A stretch of DNA of 64,000 nucleotides, from contig JAMXLO010000039.1 in NCBI GenBank assembly GCA_024280945.1, positions 1 to 64,000 on the forward strand. The letters are read 5' to 3'. Origin of the DNA: Acetobacteraceae bacterium (GTDB taxonomy: Bacteria > Pseudomonadota > Alphaproteobacteria > Acetobacterales > Acetobacteraceae). Positions 7,881 to 39,066 of this stretch are shown here, piece after piece. Under the pieces are notes generated by a model that was not told where the DNA came from, did no database searches, and saw nothing but the letters and a program-made list of their open reading frames with translations. The translations under genes were made by a program, and so were the position numbers. Position 1 is the first letter of the stretch; each line of letters starts with the position of its first letter.

Positions 7881-10226
7881 GTGCCAGTGACCGAGAGCGT
7901 GCGTCACCGAATTCCGGTATTCTGCCCACTCTGCGTTTCGCGGTGTGGGTGTGAGGCGGTCGTTGAGGATGGCCGGCTACTGGCAATCGAGCCGGACCCG
8001 TTGCACCCGACCGGCGAGGCGCTTTGCGCGAAGGGGCGCGCATCGCCCGCCCTGGTCGAAGCGCCCGACCGGCTGCTGTTTCCAGTCCGCCGAACCCGGC
8101 CCAAGGGCGATGCCGATCCTGGTTGGCAGCGGATTTCCTGGGATGAGGCGCTCGACACGACAGCCACAGCGTTGCGGCAGATCGCCGCTGAGAGTGGGCC
8201 CGAGGCGGTTGCGTTCGGTGTCACCACAAGCTCCGGGACGGCTCTGTCCGATGCGCAGCCATGGGTCGATCGGCTGATCAATGCCTTCGGCTCGCCCAAC
8301 AACTGCAACTCGATGGAGATCTGCTCGTGGCACCGCCAGTTTGCCCGCGCCTTCACCACCGGCACGAACATCGGAATGCCTGATTACGAGCAGGCGGGCT
8401 GCATCCTGCTGTGGGGTCATAACCCCAGCACATCACTGCTCGCCGCGGCGACGCGAGTTGCAAAGGCGCGGGAGCGCGGAGCCAAGCTGATCGTTGTGGA
8501 TCCGCGGCATGTCGGCTTCGCGGTGAAGGCTGATTGCTGGCTGCAGGTGCGCCCAGGAACGGATGCTGCGGTCGCACTCGCCATCGCCGGCATCATGATT
8601 GACGAGGGCTGGTTCGACATTGAGTTCGTGCGGCAATGGACCAACGGCCCGCTCCTGGTGCGCGAGAACGATGGTGCGCTGCTGCGCAGTAATGCGCTTG
8701 CCGCAGCGGGCAGCGACGGCTTCGTGGCTTGGGATGAAGGGCGCGGGACGGCGCTATGCTACGATCCGGCAAGTCGCTCTTATGACAAGCCGCCGGTTCG
8801 GCTCGCGCTCTCTGGTTCGTTCGTCGTTGCCGGCCGCAACGGGCCGATCGCCTGCCGGCCGGCATTCGATGCCTACGCGTCGCGGTGTCACGACATGTCA
8901 CCAGAAATCGCGGCTCGGTTGTCCGGTGTTGATGCCGATGCGCTCCGTGCCGCGGCACGACTGCTGTGGGAGCATCGGCCGGTGGCGCATTACACCTGGA
9001 CCGGGCTGGAGCAGCAGAGCAATGCGACGCAGACCGATCGGGCGATTGCCATCCTGCATGCTTTGACCGGCAGCATCGATGTGCCTGGCGGCAATGTTCA
9101 TTTTGCACAGGTGCCGGTCAACGACGTCTCTGGCAATGAGCTGCGTGATCCAACTCAGTGGCGGAAGGCACTGGGGCTGACCGAGCGACCGCTCGGCTTG
9201 GGCAGGTCGGGGTGGATTCTTTCCGACGACCTATACCGTTCTGTTCTCGAGGAGAAGCCTTATCGCGTTCGCGCGTTCGTCGGCTTCGGTCTCAATCTGC
9301 TGTTGTCTCATGCTGATGCTGGGCGGGGCGCTGAGGCGCTGCGTCAACTTGAGTTTCACGTTCACAGCGATCTTTACCTGACGCCGACCGCCTCCTTCGC
9401 GGACATCGTCCTTCCGGTCGCCAGCGGCTGGGAGCGCGAAGGGCTGCGTGTCGGCTTCGGACTGGATCAGGCTGCCTGTGAGCTGGTGCAATTCCGTCCG
9501 GCTGTCGTTGCGCCGCGGGGTGAGGCACTACCGGATATCGACATTGTTTTCGACCTGGCGGTTCGCCTCGGTCTTGGCGAGCAGTTCTGGCACGGCGATG
9601 TGGAGGCGGCGCTCGATCATCATCTGGCGCCAAGTGGGATAAGCATCGAATTGCTGCGCGCCAACCCACGCGGGGTCCGTGTGCCGCTGCGAACCACACA
9701 TGAGAAATATCGCAGCGGTGCGTTTGCCACACCGTCAGGAAAGATCGAGATCTTTTCCTCCGTGCTGCGTGCCGGCGGTGAAGTGCCCATTCCCGAATTT
9801 CGCGTGCCGTTCGCGCAGACGGAAGAATTCCCGCTGACGCTGACCACGGTGAAGACACCACTCTACTGCCACAGTCAGCATCGCAACCTGGCCAAGCTAC
9901 GACGGGTGGAACCCTATCCGATTGCGGAACTAAGCCCCTTGACCGCCGAATCGTGTTCCATCGGCGAGGGCGATTGGCTGGCGATCGCGACGCCACACGG
10001 CCAGGCCCGAGCGCGGGCCCGATTCAATGAAACTCTGGCTGACGGCGTGGTGGCAGCTCGACACGGCTGGTGGCAGGGGTGTTTGGAACTGGGCCTGCCG
10101 GGGTACGACGCACTTGGTTCGGACGGCGCCAACATCAACCTGACCATCGGCGTGGATGCCGCTGACCCCATCAGTGGCGCTGCCTCACACCGCTGCTATC
10201 CGTGCCGAATCCACAAACTGAACTGA
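7881..10226 (+). CDS. Molybdopterin (bis-MGD) oxidoreductase, DMSO reductase superfamily
   Basis: 781 residues, no signal peptide, so probably cytoplasmic. The N-terminus carries a 4Fe-4S site C15-x2-C18-x3-C22-x26-C49. The likely Mo ligand is Cys148 in NSMEICSWHRQ. The C-terminal molybdopterin-dinucleotide domain has ATPSGKIEIFSS and SQHRNLAKLRRVEP. From memory of the family, the overall pattern is closest to the acetylene hydratase/thiosulfate reductase branch. The aspartate that is catalytic in acetylene hydratase (next to the second cluster cysteine) is Val here, so hydratase activity is unlikely. No electron-transfer subunit is adjacent. The start is GTG (7881 or 7887) with a weak ribosome site. 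Substrate unknown. Confidence 0.88.
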   Translation: MPVTESVRHRIPVFCPLCVSRCGCEAVVEDGRLLAIEPDPLHPTGEALCAKGRASPALVEAPDRLLFPVRRTRPKGDADPGWQRISWDEALDTTATALRQIAAESGPEAVAFGVTTSSGTALSDAQPWVDRLINAFGSPNNCNSMEICSWHRQFARAFTTGTNIGMPDYEQAGCILLWGHNPSTSLLAAATRVAKARERGAKLIVVDPRHVGFAVKADCWLQVRPGTDAAVALAIAGIMIDEGWFDIEFVRQWTNGPLLVRENDGALLRSNALAAAGSDGFVAWDEGRGTALCYDPASRSYDKPPVRLALSGSFVVAGRNGPIACRPAFDAYASRCHDMSPEIAARLSGVDADALRAAARLLWEHRPVAHYTWTGLEQQSNATQTDRAIAILHALTGSIDVPGGNVHFAQVPVNDVSGNELRDPTQWRKALGLTERPLGLGRSGWILSDDLYRSVLEEKPYRVRAFVGFGLNLLLSHADAGRGAEALRQLEFHVHSDLYLTPTASFADIVLPVASGWEREGLRVGFGLDQAACELVQFRPAVVAPRGEALPDIDIVFDLAVRLGLGEQFWHGDVEAALDHHLAPSGISIELLRANPRGVRVPLRTTHEKYRSGAFATPSGKIEIFSSVLRAGGEVPIPEFRVPFAQTEEFPLTLTTVKTPLYCHSQHRNLAKLRRVEPYPIAELSPLTAESCSIGEGDWLAIATPHGQARARARFNETLADGVVAARHGWWQGCLELGLPGYDALGSDGANINLTIGVDAADPISGAASHRCYPCRIHKLN

Positions 10227-10295
10227 CGCTGGATTCTATCGATCACTGTTGCCGAACAGTCGGTGACAACATCAATCAATCTGCGGGAGGACGCG

Positions 10296-11126
10296 ATGCC
10301 AATATTGGATTCCCAGGTGCATGCCTACGAACGAAACCACCCGGGTCGCCCGTGGATCGGCACGCTGACTGGGCCGACCGAGGTCACCGGCGATCAAATG
10401 GTAGCCGCCATGGATGCTGTCGGTGTCGATGGGGCGATCCTGGTTTCGCCCTTCAGCATGTACCGCTACGACGCCAGTTACGCGCTTGACGTGTTTGCAG
10501 CTCATCCGAGTCGCTTCAGGTTGGTCAAGCCGGTCGATCCCACGGATGCCGCCGTGGCCGACACAATTGCCGCGTGGGCGGCGACAACGGGCACGGTTGG
10601 AATCCGAATCTTCTTAAGGGACAACGCTTCAACCGATCCTGCGGACCCTGCCATCAATCGGGTCCTCGCTACTGCCGCACAGCATGCGTTGCCGGTCAAT
10701 GTGGCATGCACGGGACGGGTGGATCAGGCTGGACAACTGGCGGCGCGCAACCCGAATACGCGAATAGTGATTGACCATCTAGGGCTACCGCAACCGCACG
10801 AGCCGCCGGCACCCGCGGAGCCGTTCGCGGATCTGACAAAGCTGCTTGCTCTGGCACAATACGCCAATGTCGCGGTGAAAATCAGTGGCGCCTGCACATT
10901 GTCGCACGAACCGTTTCCTTATGCGGACATCTGGGATCCCCTTCGCCGCATCTTTGATTCTTTCGGCTTCGAGCGCTGCATGTGGGGTACGGACTGGACT
11001 CGGGCAGTGCGCCTATTGACATATGCGCAGGGAGTAGAGTCTTTCCGCGTCACCGATCGCCTGTCGGACAGCGAGCGGAACGCCCTCATGGGCGGCACGC
11101 TCCAGCAAATCTATAACTGGCACTGA
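10296..11126 (+). CDS. Amidohydrolase-2 family (lactonase-type TIM barrel)
   Basis: 276 residues of the PF04909 metal-dependent hydrolase fold. The N-terminal metal motif is DSQVHAY instead of DxHxH, as in lactonase-like members. VIDHLGLP and the C-terminal RCMWGTDW (metal/acid residue Asp) are clear. GGGAGG precedes the ATG at 10296, which is better than the GTG at 10263. It follows the molybdoenzyme by 69 bases in the same direction and may act on its product. Specific lactone or amide substrate unknown. Confidence 0.85.
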   Translation: MPILDSQVHAYERNHPGRPWIGTLTGPTEVTGDQMVAAMDAVGVDGAILVSPFSMYRYDASYALDVFAAHPSRFRLVKPVDPTDAAVADTIAAWAATTGTVGIRIFLRDNASTDPADPAINRVLATAAQHALPVNVACTGRVDQAGQLAARNPNTRIVIDHLGLPQPHEPPAPAEPFADLTKLLALAQYANVAVKISGACTLSHEPFPYADIWDPLRRIFDSFGFERCMWGTDWTRAVRLLTYAQGVESFRVTDRLSDSERNALMGGTLQQIYNWH

Positions 11127-11503
11127 GCGCCATCCTTGCAGGTTGGCCAACTGGAGCCGGCGAGTGATGTTGACCCTCCAAATCAATCGGCGCCTGGGCT
11201 TCTCTTTTCTTTGCTGGCTCCCCGTTTGCGTGTAGCGATCGGGGGAAAAAGGGCGGCCCGTGGACGGGAATCCACTGAGCCGCCAGTTTCCGCTTTCACT
11301 TCCGCCGCGCACCATGCGCGGCAAAATTGAATTTAATTACGGTCGGGCAATTCCGCCTATTCACACTTTTGCCAGTTGGCAATTTTTGGGCGCACGGCAA
11401 CACCATCAGCACACTTGGCTGCGTGTGGTTCGCGCGCTGATTTTGAGCGACCTCGAACATTCGTGATTGGACTGCTCACGGGGTCGCGGGCTGTGGTTGG
11501 AAC

Positions 11504-11620
11504 ATGGACGAAGTGCTCTTTCTGCTGCTCTCAACGGTAGTGGTCGTCGCCCCACTGAGTATTTTGCGGTTTGCCGCTGAGGAGGCTAGACGTGCGATTA
11601 TAGGGGCAGTTCCCGGCTAA
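11504..11620 (+). CDS. Putative 38-residue membrane micropeptide (copy A)
   Basis: A short frame with a hydrophobic segment (LFLLLSTVVVVAPLSILRF) and a charged tail ending EARRAIIGAVPG. The tail resembles that of the frame at 11779-11955. The upstream ribosome site is weak (TTGGA). Whether it is translated is uncertain; the support is its repetition nearby. Confidence 0.3.
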   Translation: MDEVLFLLLSTVVVVAPLSILRFAAEEARRAIIGAVPG

Positions 11621-11778
11621 TCACTCTTCAGTTGTAGATGCTCGTGGCGCGCCTCCGATAGGTGAGACGGTGAAAACTTCGTCGGGTGGCTTTCCATCTG
11701 TCCGAGGCTTTCCGCCAAGCTGCAAGCGGTTCGATTTCGTGAATGCGCCCGATCGCCGATGCGCGGCGTTTGCCACCC

Positions 11779-11955
11779 ATGAACTGCTTCTTCTGGACCG
11801 CCGTGACTATCGGGGTCACCGCAACCCTGATCTTTCTCGGATTCCGCTCCGCCTCCTTAGAGGCAAGAAGTGCGATCGGACAGGTTGTTCCCGGCTATCG
11901 GTTTCTTCGTTACGCTGTGTTGGCTCTTTTCGGTCGTGGCGTTGGGCTGAGGTAA
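11779..11955 (+). CDS. Putative 58-residue membrane micropeptide (copy B)
   Basis: A hydrophobic segment (WTAVTIGVTATLIFLGF) is followed by EARSAIGQVVPG, matching 8 of 12 residues of copy A, and then 19 more residues. Copy A ends with TAA where copy B reads TAT. No convincing ribosome site; an in-frame ATG at 11743 is an alternative start. Function unknown. Confidence 0.3.
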   Translation: MNCFFWTAVTIGVTATLIFLGFRSASLEARSAIGQVVPGYRFLRYAVLALFGRGVGLR

Positions 11956-23277: not shown

Positions 23278-24225
23278 ATGCGAATTTTCGTCGCCGGAGC
23301 CAGCGGCGTTATTGGGCGCCGCCTTCTGCCGCTGCTTGTCGCCGCCGGGCATCATGTGACGGGCCTTACCCGAACGCCCGCAAAGGCAGACCTCATTCGC
23401 GGTAGCGGCAGCGAGGCCGTGGTCGCAGATGGGCTCGATTCCGTGGCGATGCGGTCCGCTGTATGTGCCGCCAAGCCTGAAGTCATCGTGCACGAGATGA
23501 CATCGCTTTCCGGCGCAATGGAGCTTCGAAACTTCGACAGCGTATTCGCGCAAAGCAATCGCCTGCGCACCGAGGGCCTCGACATCCTGTTGGGGGCTGC
23601 CCGCGAGGCAGGCACGCGCCGCATCGTCGCGCAAAGCTATTGCGGTTGGCCCTATGCGCGCACCGGCGGCCCGATCAAATCGGAAGACGACCCGCTCGAT
23701 CCCAATCCGCCGCGGCGTCAGCGGCAGACATTGAGTGCCATTATGCGGCTCGAAAGCACTATCGCTCAGGCGCGAGACATCGGCGGCGTCGCCCTGCGTT
23801 ATGGCGCGCTATACGGGGCGGACACTGGAATGCTGAGCACTTGGGTGTGCGACCAGGTTCGGCGCAGACGCATGCCGCTGATCGGCACTGGTGAAGGCTG
23901 GTGGTCATTCCTGCACGTTGACGATGCCGCAGCGGCCACCGCTGCTGCTGTCGAACACGCGGCGAGCGGAATATTCAACATCGTTGATGACGAGCCCGCG
24001 CCGGTACGGGAATGGCTGCCGACACTGGCTTCCATCCTCGGCGCAGGACCACCGAGGCGCTTGCCGAAATGGCTGGCGCGACTGTTGGCTGGCGAAGTGA
24101 TTACCAGCATGATGACTGAAATGCGCGCCGGGTCGAATACGAAGGCCGCACGATGCCTGGGCTGGCATCCGGCACACGCGTCCTGGCGCGAAGGCTTTGT
24201 CGACTCGCTCGGTGGCTCGAGATAG
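23278..24225 (+). CDS. NAD-dependent epimerase/dehydratase (atypical SDR)
   Basis: 315 residues. The N-terminal dinucleotide motif GASGVIGRRL is clear, followed by an SDR-extended body with a LHVDDAAAATAAAVEH segment. The usual YxxxK catalytic pair is not obvious, so this may be an atypical member acting as an isomerase or reductase, or binding nucleotide only. GAGG lies ahead of the ATG at 23278; an in-frame GTG two codons earlier is possible. Divergent from the dehydrogenase operon. Confidence 0.85.
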   Translation: MRIFVAGASGVIGRRLLPLLVAAGHHVTGLTRTPAKADLIRGSGSEAVVADGLDSVAMRSAVCAAKPEVIVHEMTSLSGAMELRNFDSVFAQSNRLRTEGLDILLGAAREAGTRRIVAQSYCGWPYARTGGPIKSEDDPLDPNPPRRQRQTLSAIMRLESTIAQARDIGGVALRYGALYGADTGMLSTWVCDQVRRRRMPLIGTGEGWWSFLHVDDAAAATAAAVEHAASGIFNIVDDEPAPVREWLPTLASILGAGPPRRLPKWLARLLAGEVITSMMTEMRAGSNTKAARCLGWHPAHASWREGFVDSLGGSR

Positions 24226-28125: not shown

Positions 28126-30045
28126 CTAGAAGGCCAGCGTCAGTCCTACGAAGACGCCACGGGCACGGTCGTCACCGGCAAGCTTGAAGCGATACTGGAC
28201 GTTCAGATCTATAAAGGACATCGGCGCGGTGTACTTGTCCTCACGGAACCACCAACGAAGGCTTACGCCAGGGCCTACTCCGAGTGCGCTGGGTGTGGCA
28301 AACAAACTGTCGTAGCTGCCGCCAAGCGCGAGGAAAGGGGTCGCCACCAACGTGTCGCTGATTGCATCAAGGCGAAAGCTGCGGCCGAGCCGGGCCTCGT
28401 ACGCGACGATATTCTCGACCGTCTGAAAGTATCGATCGTATTCGGCGTAGATCTGCCACATGGTCCAATTTGTGGCGTCGTAGCGCAGATCGGTGCCGTC
28501 GCCATGGGAGAATGCCACGCGCGCCAGCCAGTCCTGGCGTGCATTGGTGCCGATCGGGAACACCCGCGCTCCTTCAAGAACAAGGTTGAAGTCGGAGAAA
28601 GGTTTGACCCGCATCCCGGCCGCCCCCTGCCATGTCGGTGCACCGGTCGGCGCTCCCGTCGCGTCCGACAATGTTTCGAAAGACCGGACGAAGACCTCGA
28701 AAATTCTGCCATCCCGATAGCCGATCACCGGCGGACGCCAGTAGACTTCGGTGCCAGCCTGAAGGATGCGCCCGACCGGCGGGGGCGTCAGGGAAGAACT
28801 GGGCATCACACCAACAGCGCCGTATGTCAGGCTTGCGAACGCCCCCCAGGTGCGTTCGAGTTCCGCCACTTCGCGGCGTGTCTCGAACAGTGACTGCTGG
28901 CTCAGTGGCAGCTTACCCTCGGCATTCGCATCGATTGCGGCTTTGAAGTCGGCGATGGCCTCCGCATTGTCGACGGAGCGCTTGGCGGCATAACCCGCGT
29001 CCAGCATCGCGGGGCCGGTCAGGTTGCCGCTGGCCTTTGCCTGGCGGAATCGGGCGGTCGCCGTCGTATCGTCGCCGAGCCGGACTGCGAGATAGGCGAT
29101 GTCGAGATCAGATGCGCCATCCAGATCACCGCTCGCCTTGGATTTCTCGAACAGCGCCTTTGCATCCGCTCGTCGTCCAAGGTCTGCGAGCAGGTTGATC
29201 TCGGCCTTCACCATGGTCGCGCGATCCTGAGCCGTCGTGGCGAGTTCCGCTGCCGAGCTGAAGGCCGAAAGGGCTTCCTCCTTCTCGCCGAGCGCGAGGA
29301 GGGCGAACGCACGCCGTGAGGCGATGGCATAGGTCTTATCAGCGGCGTAAGGCTGCAGAGCATCGACGGCACGTTGTGGCTGCTTTGCCGAAAGCGCTGC
29401 ATCGGCGAGTGCCAGCGCGACATTTCTGCGTTCGGTGTCGGTCGCAAGCCCGGCAGCCTGGGCGGCGGCAAAGTCATCGGCGGCTTCGGCAAATTGGCCC
29501 GATCGCTGGCGAATATATCCACGCTGCGCAAGCAACGCCCCGTCATGCGGGTTGTTGGACAGCGCATCCGTCGCGACCTTATCCGCCTCGGCGAGATGGC
29601 CTGCGTTGGCGAGAGCATCGACGAGCAGCCGACGATACGCTTGGTTGCCAGGCGCCAGCACTACTGCTCGGCGAGCAGATGTCACCGCCGCGACGTAGTT
29701 GCCCTGCGCCTCCAGCTTGTATGCGGCATCCGCCGCTCGGTATGCTTGGTCCCGCACACCTGCCTGGACGGCCTGTTCTGCCGTCTGCAGCAGTTGACGA
29801 TATTGCGTATTCTGCGGGGCGAGCGACACCGCTTCGCGCGCACGCCGAACCGCTTCAGCGTAATTGCCGCGCGCATACGCCTTATAAGCGGCATCCGCCG
29901 CATTGTAGGCGGCGGCGGACGGCACGACAGTGGTGTCTCCGCCCGGCGTTTGCGCTTCGGCTGCAGCAGCCCCACCGATCAGGCCTGCCAGGAACAGTGC
30001 GGCTATGAAATTCGGGCGTATGCACCAGCCGCACCTTCGACCCAT
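28126..30045 (-). CDS. nfrA: NfrA-like outer-membrane TPR protein (N4 adsorption protein A type)
   Basis: 639 residues with an N-terminal signal (about residues 12-32, ending AAAEAQ). Residues about 45-400 are TPR-like helical repeats; the first two units are near copies (AYNAADAAYKAYARGNYAEAV and AYRAADAAYKLEAQGNYVAAV). The C-terminal 230 residues look like an outer-membrane beta domain, with GVGPGVSLRWWFREDKYTAPMSFIDLNVQYRF and a terminal aromatic residue, as in the NfrA C-terminal family. In E. coli NfrA is the outer-membrane partner of NfrB in glycan export and the phage N4 receptor. It follows nfrB by 12 bases with a GGGGAAG site. Confidence 0.85.
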   Translation of the reverse strand: MGRRCGWCIRPNFIAALFLAGLIGGAAAAEAQTPGGDTTVVPSAAAYNAADAAYKAYARGNYAEAVRRAREAVSLAPQNTQYRQLLQTAEQAVQAGVRDQAYRAADAAYKLEAQGNYVAAVTSARRAVVLAPGNQAYRRLLVDALANAGHLAEADKVATDALSNNPHDGALLAQRGYIRQRSGQFAEAADDFAAAQAAGLATDTERRNVALALADAALSAKQPQRAVDALQPYAADKTYAIASRRAFALLALGEKEEALSAFSSAAELATTAQDRATMVKAEINLLADLGRRADAKALFEKSKASGDLDGASDLDIAYLAVRLGDDTTATARFRQAKASGNLTGPAMLDAGYAAKRSVDNAEAIADFKAAIDANAEGKLPLSQQSLFETRREVAELERTWGAFASLTYGAVGVMPSSSLTPPPVGRILQAGTEVYWRPPVIGYRDGRIFEVFVRSFETLSDATGAPTGAPTWQGAAGMRVKPFSDFNLVLEGARVFPIGTNARQDWLARVAFSHGDGTDLRYDATNWTMWQIYAEYDRYFQTVENIVAYEARLGRSFRLDAISDTLVATPFLALGGSYDSLFATPSALGVGPGVSLRWWFREDKYTAPMSFIDLNVQYRFKLAGDDRARGVFVGLTLAF

Positions 30046-30057
30046 CGCTGCTTCCCC

Positions 30058-32166
30058 TCAGGTCTGAGCCGTGGCAAACAACTGCTGCTGCGCCGCCATC
30101 GCCTGCTCGATCGCCTCGCGCGTCACGACGCCCTGTGCGACCAGAAAGTCGCCGATGCGGCCATCCTCATCCGGCTGATATTGCGATAGAACCGAGTCGA
30201 GAGCGTCGCGCCGTACCAGACGCATCTTGAGGAGCAGATCGCCGAGCAGCGGCACCGTGTCCGTGCGCGTCACCGCGTCGTTCGGACGCATCACCCGGAA
30301 CGCACCGGCGATCTCGCTCTCGCGCACGACGTGCCAGCTAGGCTCTTGGTTCAGCGACCTCGCTATGTCTCGCCGCATGTCGGTACTGGCTGGACCCGCC
30401 GTTGCGAGCATCACCCGCCCGGCCGGGTCGATACCGATTGGCGCGATCCGCCACCGCACGCATGTTTCAATCGGCAACATGCCTATCGCTTCGCGGATCT
30501 GCTCGACGGTCGGATGCGCGCGCGGCAGGTTGCTCTGGTAGGCGATCGCCTCGGCAACCGTCTCCTCATCCAGCAACCCGTCAGCAATCAGCATCCGACC
30601 CAGCGGCAGCCCGGCGTCTTGCTGGCGATGCAGCGCCAGAACGAGGTTCTCCTCGTCAAGGGCGCGCCAGGCCACCAGCAGTTCACCCAGTCTACGCCGC
30701 CGCTGTACCAGGGTCTCGACGGACGGGAAATCATGGTGCGTCTTGTCCCAGACGATGCGGGTGCCGAACAGAACGTGCGATAGGAAGATCCTCCAAGCAC
30801 GCGATGCAGCCATGAAATTCACCAGATTGCCGACCACGATGCGGGGGATGGAGAGCAGGCCATGCTCCCAGCCATAGAGCCGGCCCACGAAGTAGCAGCG
30901 CTGCGAAATGCGCCACAGGAACACCGCGCCATTGGCATAGAACAGCAGCACGATGCGCCAATCGAACAGCCTGTCCAGCAGCGAATTGTGCCACCAGCCG
31001 CTATAGGCAGCGATATAGAAAGCAAGCAGCTGCGCGGTGAGGATGTACGCAGCGATATTGATGAACGGTGTGATGATGCCCTTCCTGTCACGGAACAGGA
31101 GGTACTTCACTGCAAGTGAACCGGACCAGCCGACCTGCTGCCAGCCCTGGAAGCATATACCGAGAACCCATCGCGCCTTCTGTCGGTAGGCAGTGCGAAA
31201 CGTATCGGGAAAGTACTCGCGCACGCAGAGTGCCATGCGCAGCCGTAACTCCTTCTTCGGACCCAGGCCGAACCACTTCTGTCGCTGGACTGCGAAGCTG
31301 ACGGGAAACCGACAAAAGATTGACTGCATGCCGCGCTGCGCGAGGCGAGCACCAACGTCATAATCCTCGGTGAGAGTGTCGGTGTTGAACGGTTGGTTGT
31401 TCGTTTCGCGCGCCAAGGTGGTGAGTGCGCGGCGCGAAAAGCAGGTGCCGACACCGGCCGAAGGCACCATTCGGGAAAGGCTTTCGCGGACCACCAGATC
31501 ACGCGCGTGCCATTCGGCGAACTCATCCATATAGGTTCCGGCCACCAGCTCGTCCCATCTCCGCTCGAGCGAGGTGACAGGGATTTGGATAAAGTCCTTC
31601 CGCGGCAGAATATAGTTGAAGAGCTTGAGTTCCAGCGGGTGGAGCACATCCTCGCTGTCGTGCAGGACCATGCCGGCAAACTTGATGTCGCTGGTCTGCT
31701 CATGGAGGAAGATCGCCTGGACGATCCAGTTCAGGCAGTCGGCCTTACATGTGGGACCGGGATGCGGCACCTCCACCCGGATCAGCTGGCGGAAGCGTCG
31801 TCGCATCCGTTCGACTTCGGCGATGGTCGCCGGATCGTTCGCATAGGTGCCGACGAAGATCAGATAGTTCTTGTAGTCGAGCGTCGTGACCATGTTCTCG
31901 AGCATCGGCGCAATCACCGCCTGTTCGAGCCATGCCGGTACCATGATGGCGAGAGGCTGCTCATCGCGTTCATAGAGTTGATTGGCGGTCAGCGGCCTGT
32001 GGACCCGCCAAACTGTGAGATGACGGTATAGTTCCCGGCACCAGAACCACACGTCGACGAAGAGATCATCGATTGACAGCAGTAGGATAACCGACGCCAG
32101 AATGACTGTCGCCAGCACCAGACCACTGTAATATGCAGAAGCAACCGAGGCGGCTGGATCCAGCAT
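30058..32166 (-). CDS. nfrB: NfrB-like c-di-GMP-responsive membrane glycosyltransferase
   Basis: 702 residues. There is one N-terminal membrane helix (about 12-34), then a processive GT2 domain: HDSED, TEDYD and the QxxRW motif in RQKARWVLG, followed by a membrane region (ITPFINIAAYILTAQLLAFY...). The C-terminus holds T2SSE_N/MshEN sequences: RLGELLVAW...ALHRQ...LGRMLIADG...AIAYQ from about residue 487, and a second tandem motif from about 635 (LLGDLLLKM...SQYQ...IGDFLVAQG...AMAAQ). MshEN modules bind c-di-GMP. The E. coli homologue polymerises ManNAc when c-di-GMP is bound. The ATG at 32166 is 10 bases after wecB. Confidence 0.87.
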   Translation of the reverse strand: MLDPAASVASAYYSGLVLATVILASVILLLSIDDLFVDVWFWCRELYRHLTVWRVHRPLTANQLYERDEQPLAIMVPAWLEQAVIAPMLENMVTTLDYKNYLIFVGTYANDPATIAEVERMRRRFRQLIRVEVPHPGPTCKADCLNWIVQAIFLHEQTSDIKFAGMVLHDSEDVLHPLELKLFNYILPRKDFIQIPVTSLERRWDELVAGTYMDEFAEWHARDLVVRESLSRMVPSAGVGTCFSRRALTTLARETNNQPFNTDTLTEDYDVGARLAQRGMQSIFCRFPVSFAVQRQKWFGLGPKKELRLRMALCVREYFPDTFRTAYRQKARWVLGICFQGWQQVGWSGSLAVKYLLFRDRKGIITPFINIAAYILTAQLLAFYIAAYSGWWHNSLLDRLFDWRIVLLFYANGAVFLWRISQRCYFVGRLYGWEHGLLSIPRIVVGNLVNFMAASRAWRIFLSHVLFGTRIVWDKTHHDFPSVETLVQRRRRLGELLVAWRALDEENLVLALHRQQDAGLPLGRMLIADGLLDEETVAEAIAYQSNLPRAHPTVEQIREAIGMLPIETCVRWRIAPIGIDPAGRVMLATAGPASTDMRRDIARSLNQEPSWHVVRESEIAGAFRVMRPNDAVTRTDTVPLLGDLLLKMRLVRRDALDSVLSQYQPDEDGRIGDFLVAQGVVTREAIEQAMAAQQQLFATAQT

Positions 32167-32176
32167 TCCGGATGGC

Positions 32177-33325
32177 CTAGTTGCCGATCGGCGGCGCGAC
32201 GAATTCTTCGACGCGGCGCCCCACGAGGGCGGCCATGATCCGTTCAGTGGCGTGGCCGTCGCCATAGGGATTTAGCCGACGCGAGACGTCGTTGTAGGCA
32301 GCCTGGTCGTCGAGAAGCTCGGTGACCGAGGCCACGATTTGCTCCTCGCTCGTGCCGACGAGGCGAACTGTCCTGGCGGCAACCGCCTCGGGTCGCTCCG
32401 TAACGTCGCGCATGACCAGGACCGGTTTGCCCAGCGACGGCGCCTCTTCCTGTACGCCGCCTGAATCGGTCAGGACGATGCATGCCCTCTGCATGAGGTA
32501 AACGAACGGCAGGTAGTCGAGCGGATCGATAAGATGGACACGCGGCCGGTTCGCAAGCGTGCCGAGCACCGGTTCCCGAACATTCGGATTGAGATGCACC
32601 GGATAGACGATATCGAGGTCCGGCCGTTGCGACAGTCGGCGAAGTGCTGCGCAGATCGCCGCGAATCCGTCACCGAAGCTCTCGCGGCGGTGGCCGGTCA
32701 CCAGAAGCAGTCTGCGGTTGGCTTCAAGGAAGGGAAACTGCGCTGCAAGCGACGACCGGAGGTCGGTGTCGCGATCGATCAGCGCGGTGATGGCCAACAG
32801 AGCATCGATCACCGTGTTGCCGGTGACGACGATCCGGCCGCCGAGTCGCTCGTTCTCCAGATTGGCCTTTGCGCCTGCAGTCGGTGCAAGCAGCAGGTCG
32901 CTGACGACATCGACGACGCGCCGGTTCATCTCCTCTGGCCATGGTCGCGAGAGGTCGTAGGTCCGAAGCCCAGCCTCGACATGCCCGACCGGAATACGGC
33001 GGTGGAATGCGGCAAGCGAGGCTGCCATCGCCGTGGTGGTATCGCCGTGCACGAGCATCCGATCGGGTCGCAGCTCGTCGAGCACCGCGTCCAACGCACC
33101 AAGTGCGCGCGCCGAAAGCGCGTTCAGTGTCTGATTGGGGACCATCAGCGAGAGGTCGAAATCCGGCACGATCCCGAACAGCTGAAGCACCTGTTTGAGC
33201 ATCTCGCGATGCTGGCCAGTGACACAGACCAGCGAGCGGATAGCGGGCTCGTCCTTCAGCGCCTTGACCAGCGGCGCCATCTTGATGGCTTCTGGCCGCG
33301 TGCCAAACACAGTGAGGATGTTCAT
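32177..33325 (-). CDS. wecB: UDP-N-acetylglucosamine 2-epimerase (non-hydrolysing)
   Basis: 382 residues, GT-B fold. It opens MNILTVFGTRPEAIKMAPL; HGDTTTA, HVEAGLR, PEEMNRR, TGHRRESFG and DSGGVQEEAPSLGKP carry the catalytic and UDP-binding residues. It converts UDP-GlcNAc to UDP-ManNAc. First gene of a three-gene operon with nfrB and nfrA, it would supply the donor sugar for the NfrB polymer. No other enterobacterial-common-antigen genes are adjacent. Confidence 0.95.
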   Translation of the reverse strand: MNILTVFGTRPEAIKMAPLVKALKDEPAIRSLVCVTGQHREMLKQVLQLFGIVPDFDLSLMVPNQTLNALSARALGALDAVLDELRPDRMLVHGDTTTAMAASLAAFHRRIPVGHVEAGLRTYDLSRPWPEEMNRRVVDVVSDLLLAPTAGAKANLENERLGGRIVVTGNTVIDALLAITALIDRDTDLRSSLAAQFPFLEANRRLLLVTGHRRESFGDGFAAICAALRRLSQRPDLDIVYPVHLNPNVREPVLGTLANRPRVHLIDPLDYLPFVYLMQRACIVLTDSGGVQEEAPSLGKPVLVMRDVTERPEAVAARTVRLVGTSEEQIVASVTELLDDQAAYNDVSRRLNPYGDGHATERIMAALVGRRVEEFVAPPIGN

Positions 33326-33700
33326 GCCCGTTCCACCGCCATAAGCTCCGCCAGCGCAAATCTCGGCTCATCGGTATAGAGTGGGCCGGAGGCGCCAATC
33401 GCGATTCGAGGCTCGACGCCAGTTTGATCGAGGTGATATCCACCATACGGATAGGGGGCGGATCGTTAAGATCGTGTCATCGGCCAGTTAAACACCTGGA
33501 TAATGCGAGCTGTGCACGCGATTGCTCCCGCCTCATCGTGCTTTTCATCGCCTGTGATGCAGCAAAGCTGCATTGCCCGAGCAGACGGTGCGGCAACGGT
33601 CCAGGGGGCGGACGTCGGCGCTGGGTGCATAGGCGTCCCTGCCATCGGGTGCGGCAGGTCCTCTGTCGTCACATGACAGCACCAACATCGCTGCGGCAAC
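33326..33700. promoter_or_regulatory. Divergent control region between wecB operon and sensor kinase
   Basis: 375 non-coding bases that must hold promoters for both directions. Two dyads are visible: ATGCAGC-AAA-GCTGCAT at 33557-33573, and CTGTC-N7-GACAG at 33663-33679, about 20 bases ahead of the kinase start. They could be operators or RNA hairpins. No clear -35/-10 pair was identified. Confidence 0.4.
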
Positions 33701-35710
33701 ATGCGTCGCCGTGGCATCCTTCCAACCAAGCGGTGGTCAGTTCCCTTGGACACTCTTGCCGGTTCCGTCGAGCGGCCTGACGCACAGAGCATTCGACCGG
33801 CGCGTGCAGGTTGGGGTGTCCGCCGCTATCTTCTGCTGGTGGTGCTGAGCAGCCTTCTTCCGCTCGCGGCCTTCGCTGCTTACCTCTCCTACGACGGCTC
33901 GCGGGCGCAGCTCGCGACGATCAGGACCTCGGTGATCTCCACGACGCGTGCTCTCGCCGTCGCGGTGGACGAACATATCCGCGTGCGCCGCGCGATGCTG
34001 GAAGAGCTGGCAAAATCGCCCCGGTTGCAAGACGGCGATCTGATTGGCTTCCACGCCGAGATGGTCGGCGTGTCACGCCTGTTGCAAGGCCCGATCCTCA
34101 CGCTGGTGCGTCCGGATGCGACCCGTGTACTGTTCAGCGATCTGCCCCCTGACGCCGTGATTCCCGGCTCTTCTCAGCCCGACCTGGTTCGACGAGTGTT
34201 CGAAACCGGGCAGCCACAACTCTCCGACGTCTTCGTCAGTGCTGTGACGCGGGAACCGATCGCGGTGCTCGCGGTACCGGTGAAGCGCGACGGGAGAGTG
34301 ATCTGGTCGCTGCAATTGGGCATGCGGAACCAAGAGTTCGGCCAGTTGCTCAATGAGCATCTGCTGCCGCCCGGCTGGCTCAGCGGCATTGTCGATCGAC
34401 AGGGCCGCTTTCTGGCGCGCGTGCCTGACAATGACAGGCGCGTCGGGCACCTGGCGTCCGAAGGCTGGCGCGCGGCCATTCAGGTCCGGCCGGACGAGAG
34501 CTGGGACCGTTTCGCGTCCCTCGAGGGCGATAGTGTCTACAACGGCCACGCACGCGCACCCGAGACGGGCTACATCGTCGGCATCGGTGTCCCGGCAAGC
34601 ATCATCGAGGCGCCGCTGCATCGCTCGCTTTGGCGTCTGTTGATCGGTGGCTGTGTCGTGGTCGCACTCGGCACACTGATCGCTGTCCTCGTGGCCCGAC
34701 GTGTCACGGACGGCCTGCGAAACGTTGCCGCGGCTGCGGGCCAGGTACCGATGGGTCATTGCGACGCGCCGCGCTCCACCAGTGTACGCGAGATCGACCA
34801 GATCGCCGCGGCCCTGATCGAGAGCGCCCAGACCATCCTGCGGCGCACCAACGAACTCAATCATCTGAACGAAACACTGGAACAACGCGTCGCCAGTGAA
34901 ACCGCCGACAGGCTGCGCGCCGAAGCGGCACTGCGCCAGGCACAGAAGATGGAAGCGATCGGTCAACTCACCGGTGGCGTGGCACATGACTTCAACAACC
35001 TGTTGCAGGTCATTTGCGGCAGCCTCGAGAACCTGCGCCAGCGATTCAGCAGCGATGCCGATACTCGGCTGCGCCGGTCGATCGAGCTTGCCGGCCAGGC
35101 GGCCGAGCGTGCTGCATCTCTGACGCAGCGCTTGTTGGCGTTTTCACGTCAGCAACCTTTGGCCCCAGAGGTGATCGACCCCAACCGCCTGGTGGGCGAC
35201 ATGTCCGATCTGATCCGGCGCAGCATCGGTGAGATGGTTGCCATGGAAACGGTTCTGGCTGCCGGGGTCTGGCGCGTGTTCGCCGATCCCAACCAGCTGG
35301 AGAGCGCGCTACTGAACCTTGCCGTGAATGCCCGCGATGCGATGCCCAGCGGCGGGAAGCTCACGATCGAAACGGCGAACACCCATCTCGATGAGGCATA
35401 CGCCGCGTCTCACGAGGTCGCGCCTGGCCAATACGTAGGGATCTGCGTTACCGATACCGGCGAGGGTATGTCACCAGAGGTGATCGACAGGGTGTTCGAT
35501 CCGTTCTTCACGACCAAGCCACCAGGGCAGGGCAGCGGCCTCGGTCTGTCGCAGGTCTATGGCTTCGTGAAGCAGTCACAGGGCCACGTGAAGGTGTACA
35601 GCGAACTCGGCGCTGGCACGACAGTCAAGATCTATCTGCCACGGAGTACGGGACCTGAATTTGCCGAGGTCTCCCACGAGCACCAGCCCGGTGTCGCAAG
35701 GCGATGCTGA
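33701..35710 (+). CDS. Sensor histidine kinase, hybrid type with separated receiver
   Basis: 669 residues. There is a first membrane helix (about 43-63), an extracytoplasmic dCache-like sensor (to about 305), a second helix (about 309-332), a coiled linker, then HisKA with the phospho-acceptor His429 in GGVAHDFNNLL. The ATPase domain has N-box NLAVNARDAM, DTGEGMSPEV and GSGLGLS. Kinases of this type usually continue into a C-terminal receiver; here the frame stops and a receiver follows in another frame. The start has no clear ribosome site. The stimulus is unknown; the divergent nfr operon is a candidate target. Confidence 0.9.
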   Translation: MRRRGILPTKRWSVPLDTLAGSVERPDAQSIRPARAGWGVRRYLLLVVLSSLLPLAAFAAYLSYDGSRAQLATIRTSVISTTRALAVAVDEHIRVRRAMLEELAKSPRLQDGDLIGFHAEMVGVSRLLQGPILTLVRPDATRVLFSDLPPDAVIPGSSQPDLVRRVFETGQPQLSDVFVSAVTREPIAVLAVPVKRDGRVIWSLQLGMRNQEFGQLLNEHLLPPGWLSGIVDRQGRFLARVPDNDRRVGHLASEGWRAAIQVRPDESWDRFASLEGDSVYNGHARAPETGYIVGIGVPASIIEAPLHRSLWRLLIGGCVVVALGTLIAVLVARRVTDGLRNVAAAAGQVPMGHCDAPRSTSVREIDQIAAALIESAQTILRRTNELNHLNETLEQRVASETADRLRAEAALRQAQKMEAIGQLTGGVAHDFNNLLQVICGSLENLRQRFSSDADTRLRRSIELAGQAAERAASLTQRLLAFSRQQPLAPEVIDPNRLVGDMSDLIRRSIGEMVAMETVLAAGVWRVFADPNQLESALLNLAVNARDAMPSGGKLTIETANTHLDEAYAASHEVAPGQYVGICVTDTGEGMSPEVIDRVFDPFFTTKPPGQGSGLGLSQVYGFVKQSQGHVKVYSELGAGTTVKIYLPRSTGPEFAEVSHEHQPGVARRC

Positions 35711-36074
35711 TACCGTGGTGCTGGTGGTCGAGGATGATGGCTGTGCGCGCGCTCAGTGTCGACATGCTGCACGGCTCAGCTATCGCGTGCTGCAAGCGAA
35801 GGATGGCACAGTGGCGCTGCAGTTGCTGGCTGCACGGCCTGACATCAGCCTGTTGTTCACCGATGTCGGCCTGCCGGGGCCGTACAATGGCCGCCAGTTG
35901 GCCGACGAGGCGCGGCGACGCAATCCGGCGCTCAAGGTGCTGTTCACGACCGGCTATGCGCGCAATGCTATTGTGCACCATGGCCGTCTCGATCCTGGGG
36001 TCGAGCTGATCGTCAAGCCATTCAGCTACGCCGCGCTTGCCGCTAAGCTGAGGACCGTACTGGAGGGGAAATGA
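35661..36074 (+). CDS. Receiver domain, frameshifted off the sensor kinase
   Basis: Up to 137 residues. The receiver has the acidic pair in VVEDD, the phospho-acceptor in LLFTDVGLPG, the switch threonine in LFTTGYA and lysine in IVKPFS. It overlaps the kinase frame by 50 bases and probably was its C-terminal domain. Inside helix 1 the reading frame is also displaced: bases about 35740-35773 read in the third frame give AVRALSVDMLHG, the expected helix, and then the original frame resumes. The key residues remain, so the product may be stable or may be a decaying relic. Confidence 0.6.
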   Translation: MPRSPTSTSPVSQGDADTVVLVVEDDGCARAQCRHAARLSYRVLQAKDGTVALQLLAARPDISLLFTDVGLPGPYNGRQLADEARRRNPALKVLFTTGYARNAIVHHGRLDPGVELIVKPFSYAALAAKLRTVLEGK

Positions 36075-36361: not shown

Positions 36362-36889
36362 TTATCCTGGATCGCGTGGAAACCGTACAAATCCGTTGCG
36401 GTTCGGCATGCTCACTCTGGGCAGCGACTGCGCGTCGAGCACATCGTCGATACCGACGATACCGTTGAGATTGAGGATATACGCCGACACCGCATAGACC
36501 TCGTCGTCGGTCATAGATTTTGGTGCAGTGAACGGCATAGCGCGTCGAACATAGTCGAACAGGGTCGTTGCATACGGCCAGTAACTCCCGACAGTCTTGC
36601 TTGGGGTCTTGCCGGTCGTGAGGGAACCCCTACCGCCAGCCAGTACATCCGCCGGCCCGCCAGTTCCCTTCTCACCGTGACAGGCCGCGCACTTGGCAGC
36701 ATAGACCGCTTCGCCCTGCGCCGCCGTGCCGTGCCCAGGCGGCAGTGTTGCCCCGTCGGGTCCGATGCTGATGTCCCACGGCGCGACATCGGCCGGTGAG
36801 ATCGGCTGACCGAACTGCTGAGCCTGGGTCAGCGAGGGCAAAAGCGCGAACCACACGGCGATGAGGCCGAGGCGCTTATGCGTAGACAT
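36362..36889 (-). CDS. soxD: Cytochrome c subunit of a SoxCD-like dehydrogenase
   Basis: 175 residues. A signal peptide ending SLTQAQ is followed by a single haem c site C67-AAC-H71. The distal ligand may be a Met in MPF or in the C-terminal RVSMPNRNGF. The wording (WPYATTLFDYVRRAMPF, DDEVYAVSAYILNLNGI) is typical of the cytochrome that accepts electrons from SoxC-type sulfite/sulfane dehydrogenases. It overlaps the end of soxC by 14 bases. True SoxD is often longer (di-haem), so this is a short version. Confidence 0.8.
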   Translation of the reverse strand: MSTHKRLGLIAVWFALLPSLTQAQQFGQPISPADVAPWDISIGPDGATLPPGHGTAAQGEAVYAAKCAACHGEKGTGGPADVLAGGRGSLTTGKTPSKTVGSYWPYATTLFDYVRRAMPFTAPKSMTDDEVYAVSAYILNLNGIVGIDDVLDAQSLPRVSMPNRNGFVRFPRDPG

Positions 36890-38156
36890 TGGTCGCCTCG
36901 CCCTTCTCGTCGATGCGCCAGCTGGCAATGGCATTGTAGTGATAGATGCCGCGCAGACCGCGCTCGGCAGCAAACGCTGCGCGCGTCGGCTGCACCATGC
37001 CGGTGCTGTCAGTCGCCCGGCTCTGCAACACGGCTGGTCCGCCGTTCCATTGCCAGGGCGCTCTGAAGCGCACCGGCGCCTTCGGCAGAATCGGCTCTTG
37101 CAGCACCGCCGGTGCCCAGCTTTGTCCCCCATCGGCCGACACATCGACCTGACGAATGCTGCCATTGCCGGACCACGCCAGACCGGAGATCTCGTAGAAG
37201 CCGCGCGAGGTGAGAGCGATGCCCGGTGCAGGACGGGTGATCAACGACTTCACCTCCATCGGAAACACGAACTGCCACGCCTTCTCGTCCTTCAGCAGGA
37301 TCGTGTATTTCGACGTCTCGTCCTTGGACATGGTCGGCGTGGCCACGACCTTGATCCGCCGCAGCCATTTGACGTTCGTGTTGCCTTCGAAGCCGGGCAG
37401 CAGCAGGCGCACCGGATAGCCGTTCGACGGCCGCACCCGCTCGCCATTCTGGTAGAGGCACACCAGCGCGTCGTCCATCGCCTTGGCCAATGGAATACTG
37501 CGGCTCATCGACGCGCCATCAGCGCCTTCGGCGATCAGCCAGCGAGCGGCAGGATCAACACCGGCTTCTTCCAGCAGCGTTGCGAGGCGTACCCCGGTCC
37601 ATTCGGAACAGCTCAGCAGTCCATGCAGGGCGGCAATGCCGAGAGGCTGCGGCTGCGGTGCGTTGAGCGCACCGCTGTTGCCCGCACACTCGATGAAGGC
37701 AATGCGTGATTGCATCGGGTAGCGGTGCAGTGCATCGAGCGTGAACATCAGCGGCTGACGCACCAGGCCGTGAATCACCAGGCGGTGTTGATCAGGATCG
37801 ATGTCCGGTATGCCTGAGTGGCTGCGCTCGAAGTGCAGCCCCGACGGCGTGATCATTCCGTCCAGCAAGTGCAGCGGCGTGCGGGCAGTCCCGATACCCA
37901 GCAATCCCGGTGCTGGCGGCGGTGGGATGACTCGAAGCACCTTGTCCTCGAACCGCGAGGGCTGCCCGTAAGTTGCAAAGCCGGCGCCTGGGCTTTGCAT
38001 ATACGCTTGTACCGGCAGCAGTTCTGCAGCCGCGCCGGCGGCCGTCATGCTCGAAGCCGTAGCGGCGATCGCACCTTCGAAAAGGGTTCGCCGGCTCAGT
38101 ATGCCGTTGCCGGCAGCTGGCTCAGCCAGACCGCGGTCAGACTTTCTCTTCGCCAT
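36876..38156 (-). CDS. soxC: SoxC-type molybdenum sulfite/sulfane dehydrogenase
   Basis: 426 residues, sulfite-oxidase family. A Tat signal (LSRRTLFEGAIAATASSM) sends it to the periplasm folded with Mo-cofactor. The Mo-ligand cysteine is in FIECAGNSGAL. The Mo-binding and dimerisation domains follow (SMSRSIPLAKAMDDA, SGLAWSGNGSIRQVDVSADGG). A run of G bases ahead of the ATG at 38156 serves as ribosome site. With the overlapping cytochrome gene it would oxidise sulfite or protein-bound sulfane. No soxXYZAB genes are in the window, so sulfite detoxification is the simpler role. Confidence 0.88.
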   Translation of the reverse strand: MAKRKSDRGLAEPAAGNGILSRRTLFEGAIAATASSMTAAGAAAELLPVQAYMQSPGAGFATYGQPSRFEDKVLRVIPPPPAPGLLGIGTARTPLHLLDGMITPSGLHFERSHSGIPDIDPDQHRLVIHGLVRQPLMFTLDALHRYPMQSRIAFIECAGNSGALNAPQPQPLGIAALHGLLSCSEWTGVRLATLLEEAGVDPAARWLIAEGADGASMSRSIPLAKAMDDALVCLYQNGERVRPSNGYPVRLLLPGFEGNTNVKWLRRIKVVATPTMSKDETSKYTILLKDEKAWQFVFPMEVKSLITRPAPGIALTSRGFYEISGLAWSGNGSIRQVDVSADGGQSWAPAVLQEPILPKAPVRFRAPWQWNGGPAVLQSRATDSTGMVQPTRAAFAAERGLRGIYHYNAIASWRIDEKGEATNVYA

Positions 38157-38250
38157 GTTTACCCCCCGGTGTCGGCGCCGGATGCTACCAGGGCGGCTGC
38201 CAATCCTCCAAGACTGCGAGCAGACGACGATTGCCTGCGTGGCGGCCCGC

Positions 38251-39066
38251 CTACACCGCCGGTATGGTCTCCGCCAGCCGTCCGCCGACCCGTATCGGTG
38301 CGATCCGTCGTGCCAGGCCGGTCGCATCGTCGGTCTCGATGAACACGCCGCATACCGTCGCCTCACCTTCGGCCGGCGCCAGTCTTTCGCCCGGCATCTT
38401 TCGCCAGAACCGCAGAGTGGCTGCGTCCTTCGCCATGCCGATCACGCTGTCATAGTCACCCGACATACCCGCATCGGACTGGAACGCCGTCCCGCCCGGC
38501 AGCACCTGCGCGTCGGCCGAAGGGCAATGCGTGTGCGTGCCGATCACCGCGGACACCTGGCCGTCGAGGAAATGCGCGAAAGCCATCTTCTCGCTCGATG
38601 CCTCGGCGTGGAAGTCGACGAGGATGGCCGCGACCGTTCCGCCCAGCCGGTGCCTGGCCAAGAGGTCGGCGGTGGTGCGGAAGGGGTCGTCGAGCGGGTC
38701 CATGAACAGCCGCCCCATCGTTTGCATCACCAGGGCGCGGCGTCCGCCACCCACGTCCACCAAGGCGGAACCCGCCCCTGGTGTGCCGGGTGGAAAATTC
38801 GCGGCGCGCAGCAAGCGAGGGGTCTCTGCAATGTAGGGTATGATCTCCTTGCGATCCCAGGCGTGGTTGCCGAGTGTGATGACGTCGGCGCCTGCGGCAA
38901 ACAGCGCATCTGCCATATCCGGGGCCAGGCCGAACCCGTGCGACGCGTTCTCGGCGTTCACCACCGCAAGCTCTATCCGCAGCGCGTCGCGCAGCCCCGG
39001 CAGCCTGGCAGCGACGGTCTCGCGGCCGGTTCGGCCGACCACGTCGCCGATGAACAGGATGTGCAT
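38251..39066 (-). CDS. YmdB-like metallophosphoesterase (TIGR00282)
   Basis: 271 residues. The dinuclear metal ligands appear in order: IGDVVGR, VVNAENAS, LGNHAWD, ILVDFHAEASSEK and IGTHTHCPSAD. B. subtilis YmdB is a 2',3'-cyclic-nucleotide phosphodiesterase. Its start codon abuts the stop of the fau-like gene upstream on the same strand, so the two are coupled. Confidence 0.93.
   Translation of the reverse strand: MHILFIGDVVGRTGRETVAARLPGLRDALRIELAVVNAENASHGFGLAPDMADALFAAGADVITLGNHAWDRKEIIPYIAETPRLLRAANFPPGTPGAGSALVDVGGGRRALVMQTMGRLFMDPLDDPFRTTADLLARHRLGGTVAAILVDFHAEASSEKMAFAHFLDGQVSAVIGTHTHCPSADAQVLPGGTAFQSDAGMSGDYDSVIGMAKDAATLRFWRKMPGERLAPAEGEATVCGVFIETDDATGLARRIAPIRVGGRLAETIPAV

Follow-up and report, generated by a model that had tools for sequence, protein, structure and literature searches.

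Three closely packed genes on a contig from an Acetobacteraceae bacterium resemble those that make the glycan receptor of phage N4 in Escherichia coli, which raises the question of whether they form a working glycan synthase and exporter, and of what, if anything, distinguishes them from systems already described. The stretch analyzed, referred to here as the window, comprises 64,000 nucleotides (contig JAMXLO010000039.1, positions 1 to 64,000), and the host genome is an NCBI draft assembly of 156 contigs with 99% completeness. Our reading, to which we give a probability of roughly three in four, is that the operon is a working Nfr-type polysaccharide synthase and exporter that belongs to a BcsB-linked branch of these systems and has secondarily lost the BcsB-like subunit. 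The operon is real, well identified and mostly known, and the missing BcsB-like subunit is what sets it apart.

Gene layout and predicted functions

The open reading frame list and profile searches defined a minus-strand unit of three open frames, wecB (also nfrC; 32177-33325, 382 aa), nfrB (30058-32166, 702 aa) and nfrA (28126-30045, 639 aa). The stop codon of wecB is separated from the ATG of nfrB by 10 bases (32167-32176), and the stop of nfrB from the ATG of nfrA by 12 bases (30046-30057), coordinates and gaps identical to those from which the preliminary description had called the genes tightly spaced. The GT2 frame can be opened further upstream, at 32265, where it would overlap wecB, but the ATG at 32166 is the best start, as the resulting protein, with the N terminus MLDPAASV, agrees with its relatives in both length and N-terminal sequence. 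Judging by gene layout, the probable site of the operon promoter is the intergenic region at 33326-33700, although a search of the operon region found no match to the sigma-70 consensus upstream and no convincing terminator. Across this 375-base gap, and divergent from the operon, lie two plus-strand genes, one (33701-35710) encoding a dCache sensor histidine kinase and the other (35661-36074) a single-domain response regulator; this pair is a possible regulator of the operon. Also found in the window, on the minus strand at 36362-38366, was a pair encoding a cytochrome c and a SoxC-like sulfite dehydrogenase, the latter with its best plasmid matches in Methylosinus.

The first gene encodes a non-hydrolyzing UDP-GlcNAc 2-epimerase, as had been proposed. 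Its product scored 462 bits against TIGR00236 (cutoff 210), aligned over its whole length with 1vgv, an epimerase chain of known structure (459 bits), and retains the GTRPEAIKM stretch with K15, the residue whose replacement by alanine inactivates E. coli WecB (PMC8669472). A profile search of the genome found the operon copy as the sole WecB match.

The second gene encodes an inner-membrane GT2 polymerase of the PRK15489 type with a C-terminal MshEN region, scoring 1021.5 bits with NF012033/PRK15489 (cutoff 537), and 650 bits with NF008411, the model for E. coli-type NfrB, which is below the cutoff of 1170 for that subfamily. Alignment with E. coli NfrB, with which it shares 38% identity and which falls on a different branch, located the three motifs of processive GT2 synthases, D170 in HDSED, TED at 266-268 and QKARW at 329-333; D170, D268 and W333 correspond to E. 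coli D169, D267 and W330, which are required for N4 infection (PMC8669469, PMC8669472). A Pseudomonas row of the alignment was out of frame and was left out of account. From residue 490 to the C terminus (30058-30699) extends a predicted c-di-GMP-binding region of the MshEN type, supported by Pfam MshEN (32.7 bits; cutoff 23.1), by the NCBIfam c-di-GMP motif NF053729 (72.9 bits in two stretches, one at ORF residues 525-577), and by a sequence match of residues 489-598 to the MshE chain 5htl. Changes at L490, G491, G519 and L537 in this region of E. coli NfrB reduce or abolish N4 infection (PMC8669469, PMC8669472), and the aligned residues in the window are L493, G494, G523 and, where E. coli has L537, I541. 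E. coli NfrB binds c-di-GMP with a Kd of about 1 uM (PMC8669469). Six GGDEF matches were found in the genome. For NfrB, the AlphaFold2 model had a mean pLDDT of 61.3, too low for fold comparison.

The third gene encodes a probable outer-membrane export protein with a signal-like N terminus, TPR helices and C-terminal strands. It matched NfrA_C with 198.7 bits (cutoff 25), the sole match to this family found in the genome, and also matched TPR profiles. In the AlphaFold2 model (mean pLDDT 85.8), an N terminus of low confidence precedes 19 helices and then 12 C-terminal strands, an arrangement that fits a TPR and barrel exporter. Foldseek and VIA-align searches with the full-length model returned mostly unrelated TPR proteins; E. 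coli BcsC (9b8a and 9b8h) was among the Foldseek matches, weakly (TM about 0.3) and ranked below many generic TPR proteins. The preliminary identification of a membrane GT2 with MshEN domains and of an outer-membrane TPR/beta protein is thus upheld by the profile scores, which far exceed what chance would produce, and neither of the findings named beforehand as evidence against it was seen, as the GT2 scores with NfrB models rather than with a different GT2 family and the exporter carries NfrA_C.

Comparison with known Nfr systems

The best-studied counterpart is the E. coli system for the N4 glycan receptor (NGR), which consists of nfrBA-ybcH and wecB (PMC8669469, PMC8669472) and shares with the window WecB, an NfrB with GT2 and MshEN domains, an NfrA with TPR and NfrA_C domains, and the lack of a BcsB-like gene beside nfrB. 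It differs in that wecB is located in the ECA cluster, that ybcH is present, and that NfrA is longer (990 aa, as opposed to 639 aa). No match to DUF4434/YbcH was found in the window genome by a search that detected the E. coli protein as a control; because N4 can infect E. coli that lacks YbcH (PMC8669469), this does not exclude membership in the Nfr/NGR group.

By analogy with E. coli, WecB would convert UDP-GlcNAc to UDP-ManNAc, and binding of c-di-GMP to the C-terminal MshEN region would switch on NfrB, which would polymerize ManNAc and pass the chain across the inner membrane, probably acting alone as E. coli NfrB does. NfrA would then carry the chain through the periplasm by its TPR part and through the outer membrane by its barrel part. 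The identity of the sugar, the c-di-GMP control and the export are all inferred from E. coli; what the window itself provides is family membership, gene order, active-site residues, most of the E. coli residues linked to c-di-GMP, and single copies of wecB and nfrA. The profile matches and retained residues thus lend support to the earlier proposal of a candidate c-di-GMP-responsive WecB-NfrB-NfrA system.

It is also conceivable that the polymer is not based on ManNAc, with NfrB accepting another UDP-sugar and WecB serving a different pathway, such as lipopolysaccharide or capsule synthesis. None of the studies consulted gives a chemical identification of an Nfr polymer (PMC8669469, PMC8669472), and the use of UDP-ManNAc by NfrB rests on genetics. 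Nevertheless, the operon opens with wecB, which ends 10 bases before nfrB and for which no second copy was detected in the genome. The two genes are likewise linked in 76 of the 80 nearest loci, and such linkage has been described for all organisms that have no wecB elsewhere (PMC8669469). Together these observations make a different sugar quite improbable.

The same linkage bears on the earlier suggestion that a built-in wecB makes this a distinct, self-contained unit, a suggestion that did not stand. From a survey of NfrB homologues that covered 406 species besides E. coli, Junkermeier and Hengge (2021) reported that all organisms without wecB in another pathway have it directly beside nfrB, with occasional alphaproteobacterial members (PMC8669469). 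Sellner and colleagues described a cluster of Achromobacter xylosoxidans in which nfrA, nfrB and wecB are joined by genes for a BcsB homologue and for acetyltransferases (PMC8669472). In our survey of a bacterial genome collection, wecB lay inside the stretch examined in 76 of the 80 nearest loci. The wecB-nfrB-nfrA layout is therefore already known, and novelty of a wecB inside the operon was rejected on both prior work and the surveyed loci.

Compact wecB-nfrB-nfrA units also occur in other Alphaproteobacteria: Zymomonas mobilis ZM4 and Thalassospira marina have them on plasmids, and further genomes of the window's class (L147-L149) contain them as well. The loci on pZZM403 of Z. mobilis and pCSC3H3 of T. 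marina, like the window, lack a BcsB-like gene, but they include a DUF4434 gene and their NfrBs are annotated as E. coli type and are 37-38% identical to that of the window; they probably belong to another branch. In four loci of the survey (L148, L149, L157 and L158) the NfrB open frames are about 566-580 aa, probably reflecting a shortened MshEN region, and the wecB-nfrB-nfrA neighborhood is kept.

Closer to the window are loci of Pseudomonas, Paraburkholderia, Herbaspirillum, Microvirga and Nitratireductor with the arrangement wecB-bcsB-like-nfrB-nfrA(-ybcH), which share a leading wecB, the same NfrB branch (57-60% identity) and the gene order. What the window lacks is their BcsB-like gene, which encodes about 740 aa, lies between wecB and nfrB, and is annotated in Nitratireductor as two shorter genes. 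The PGR locus of Acinetobacter baumannii (PMC12507263) likewise encodes an NfrB-like PgrC, a WecB-like PgrF and a predicted outer-membrane porin, with a proposed ManNAc glycan that serves as a phage receptor, but in addition has extra genes and a BcsB homologue, PgrD, that is needed for adsorption of phage StAb3 (PMC12507263). On plasmid pII of Paraburkholderia dioscoreae (L170, 251-13941), the Nfr cluster is followed downstream by genes for AlgF and an MBOAT acetyltransferase, and an integrase gene is located nearby.

Nfr-type glycans are phage receptors in both E. coli and A. baumannii. With everything that the E. coli core needs in three genes and no other wecB found in the genome, the window operon is small enough to be useful for reconstitution, and the absence of the subunit permits direct comparison with four-gene relatives.

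Absence of the BcsB-like gene

In 80 of 80 nearest loci, wecB and nfrB are separated by a gene for a BcsB-like protein of about 740 aa, and Pfam BcsB scored above its cutoff in the BcsB-like genes of the two relatives tested. In the window, the place that this gene of about 2.2 kb takes up in relatives is the 10-base spacer at 32167-32176. No remnant was detected between positions 24001 and 38000, and neither the BcsB-like query nor the Pfam BcsB family found a match anywhere in the genome, E. coli being the positive control for the Pfam search. This absence went unremarked in the preliminary description and may be new.

The host genome is a draft of many contigs, so the gap might be ascribed to an assembly artefact; however, wecB and nfrB meet cleanly, each of them intact and with only the 10-base spacer between them, and the BcsB-like gene was found on no other contig at 99% completeness, so this explanation is hardly credible. 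In some other genomes the BcsB-like gene appears as two separate frames or is annotated as two genes, as though it were sometimes broken (L048, 4589-6963; L052, 4700-6952; L154, 6069-8808; L166, 3626-5865), which could be due to sequencing error or to inactivation.

Phylogenetic analysis of 50 NfrB sequences, which left out those of Z. mobilis and T. marina, nested the window in a clade of 31 rows (support 100/99) in which all 30 of the others are BcsB-linked; its nearest placement, with Pseudoxanthobacter, was weak (82/71). The label of being BcsB-linked or not requires only two changes on this tree, as compared with 15 in shuffles, one where the BcsB-linked branch begins and the other at the window. 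Because the window NfrB is nested in the BcsB-linked clade and the genome searches gave no BcsB match, the simplest interpretation is that the BcsB-like gene was secondarily lost from the operon, and the lack of a remnant implies that the loss was either not recent or clean.

Loss of this subunit could mean that the system is inactive, as the BcsB homologue of A. baumannii is needed for phage adsorption: in that locus, which is of the same type, insertions in the gene or its deletion confer phage resistance, and clean deletion of pgrD abolishes adsorption (PMC12507263). The operon would then no longer be a functional polymer synthase, its BcsB-like subunit having been lost, perhaps under selection by phage, and the other genes remaining for now; the presence of the BcsB-like gene in all close kin is in keeping with this possibility. 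We regard it as improbable, since all three frames are open, every catalytic residue checked is kept, and the loss, having left no remnant, is either not recent or clean. Moreover, of 302 conserved positions, 24 are altered in the window NfrB, which is 57-60% identical to 13 relatives; two intact alphaproteobacterial relatives differ at 25 of 307 and 22 of 304. It therefore does not have the look of a decaying gene, and its function is probably kept.

If the operon does work without the subunit, as in the reading that we favor, it might represent a natural deletion experiment, in which an NfrB of the BcsB branch polymerizes and exports its glycan without the subunit with the help of compensating changes in NfrB, an idea that we consider rather doubtful. 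One position may be worth following in this respect. At position 17, in the N-terminal hydrophobic segment, 87 of 87 BcsB-linked NfrBs have E or Q and 11 of 12 non-linked NfrBs have K, and the window alone has V; because the sequences are related and the position was chosen from among 24 differences, this correlation serves as a lead only. If the idea were true, position 17 would mark a contact between subunit and synthase, and the operon would show how the subunit becomes dispensable.

Distribution and origin

The operon appears to be rare among the relatives of its host. NfrA_C was found in one of 200 genomes sampled from the family, the window's own, and in 13 of 385 genomes of the class, and among 397 genomes of the order the window genome alone gave a strong NfrB match. 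A search around genome G550 recovered no further member besides G550 itself. The nearest kin of the operon are in Hyphomicrobiales, Burkholderiales and Pseudomonas, and this patchy distribution, with the closest relatives so distant, suggests gain by transfer. The GC content and codon usage of wecB, nfrB and nfrA are within the range of the other genes of the window, so any transfer would be old.

Another genome of the same family (L153; G065:C3:10000-29900) encodes, at 9239-11811, a shorter NfrB-like GT2 with a 467 aa open frame beside a wecB-like gene. No NfrA was found nearby, and the GT2 shares 33% identity with the window NfrB and matches its residues 25-487 only, indicating a different GT2-epimerase pair.
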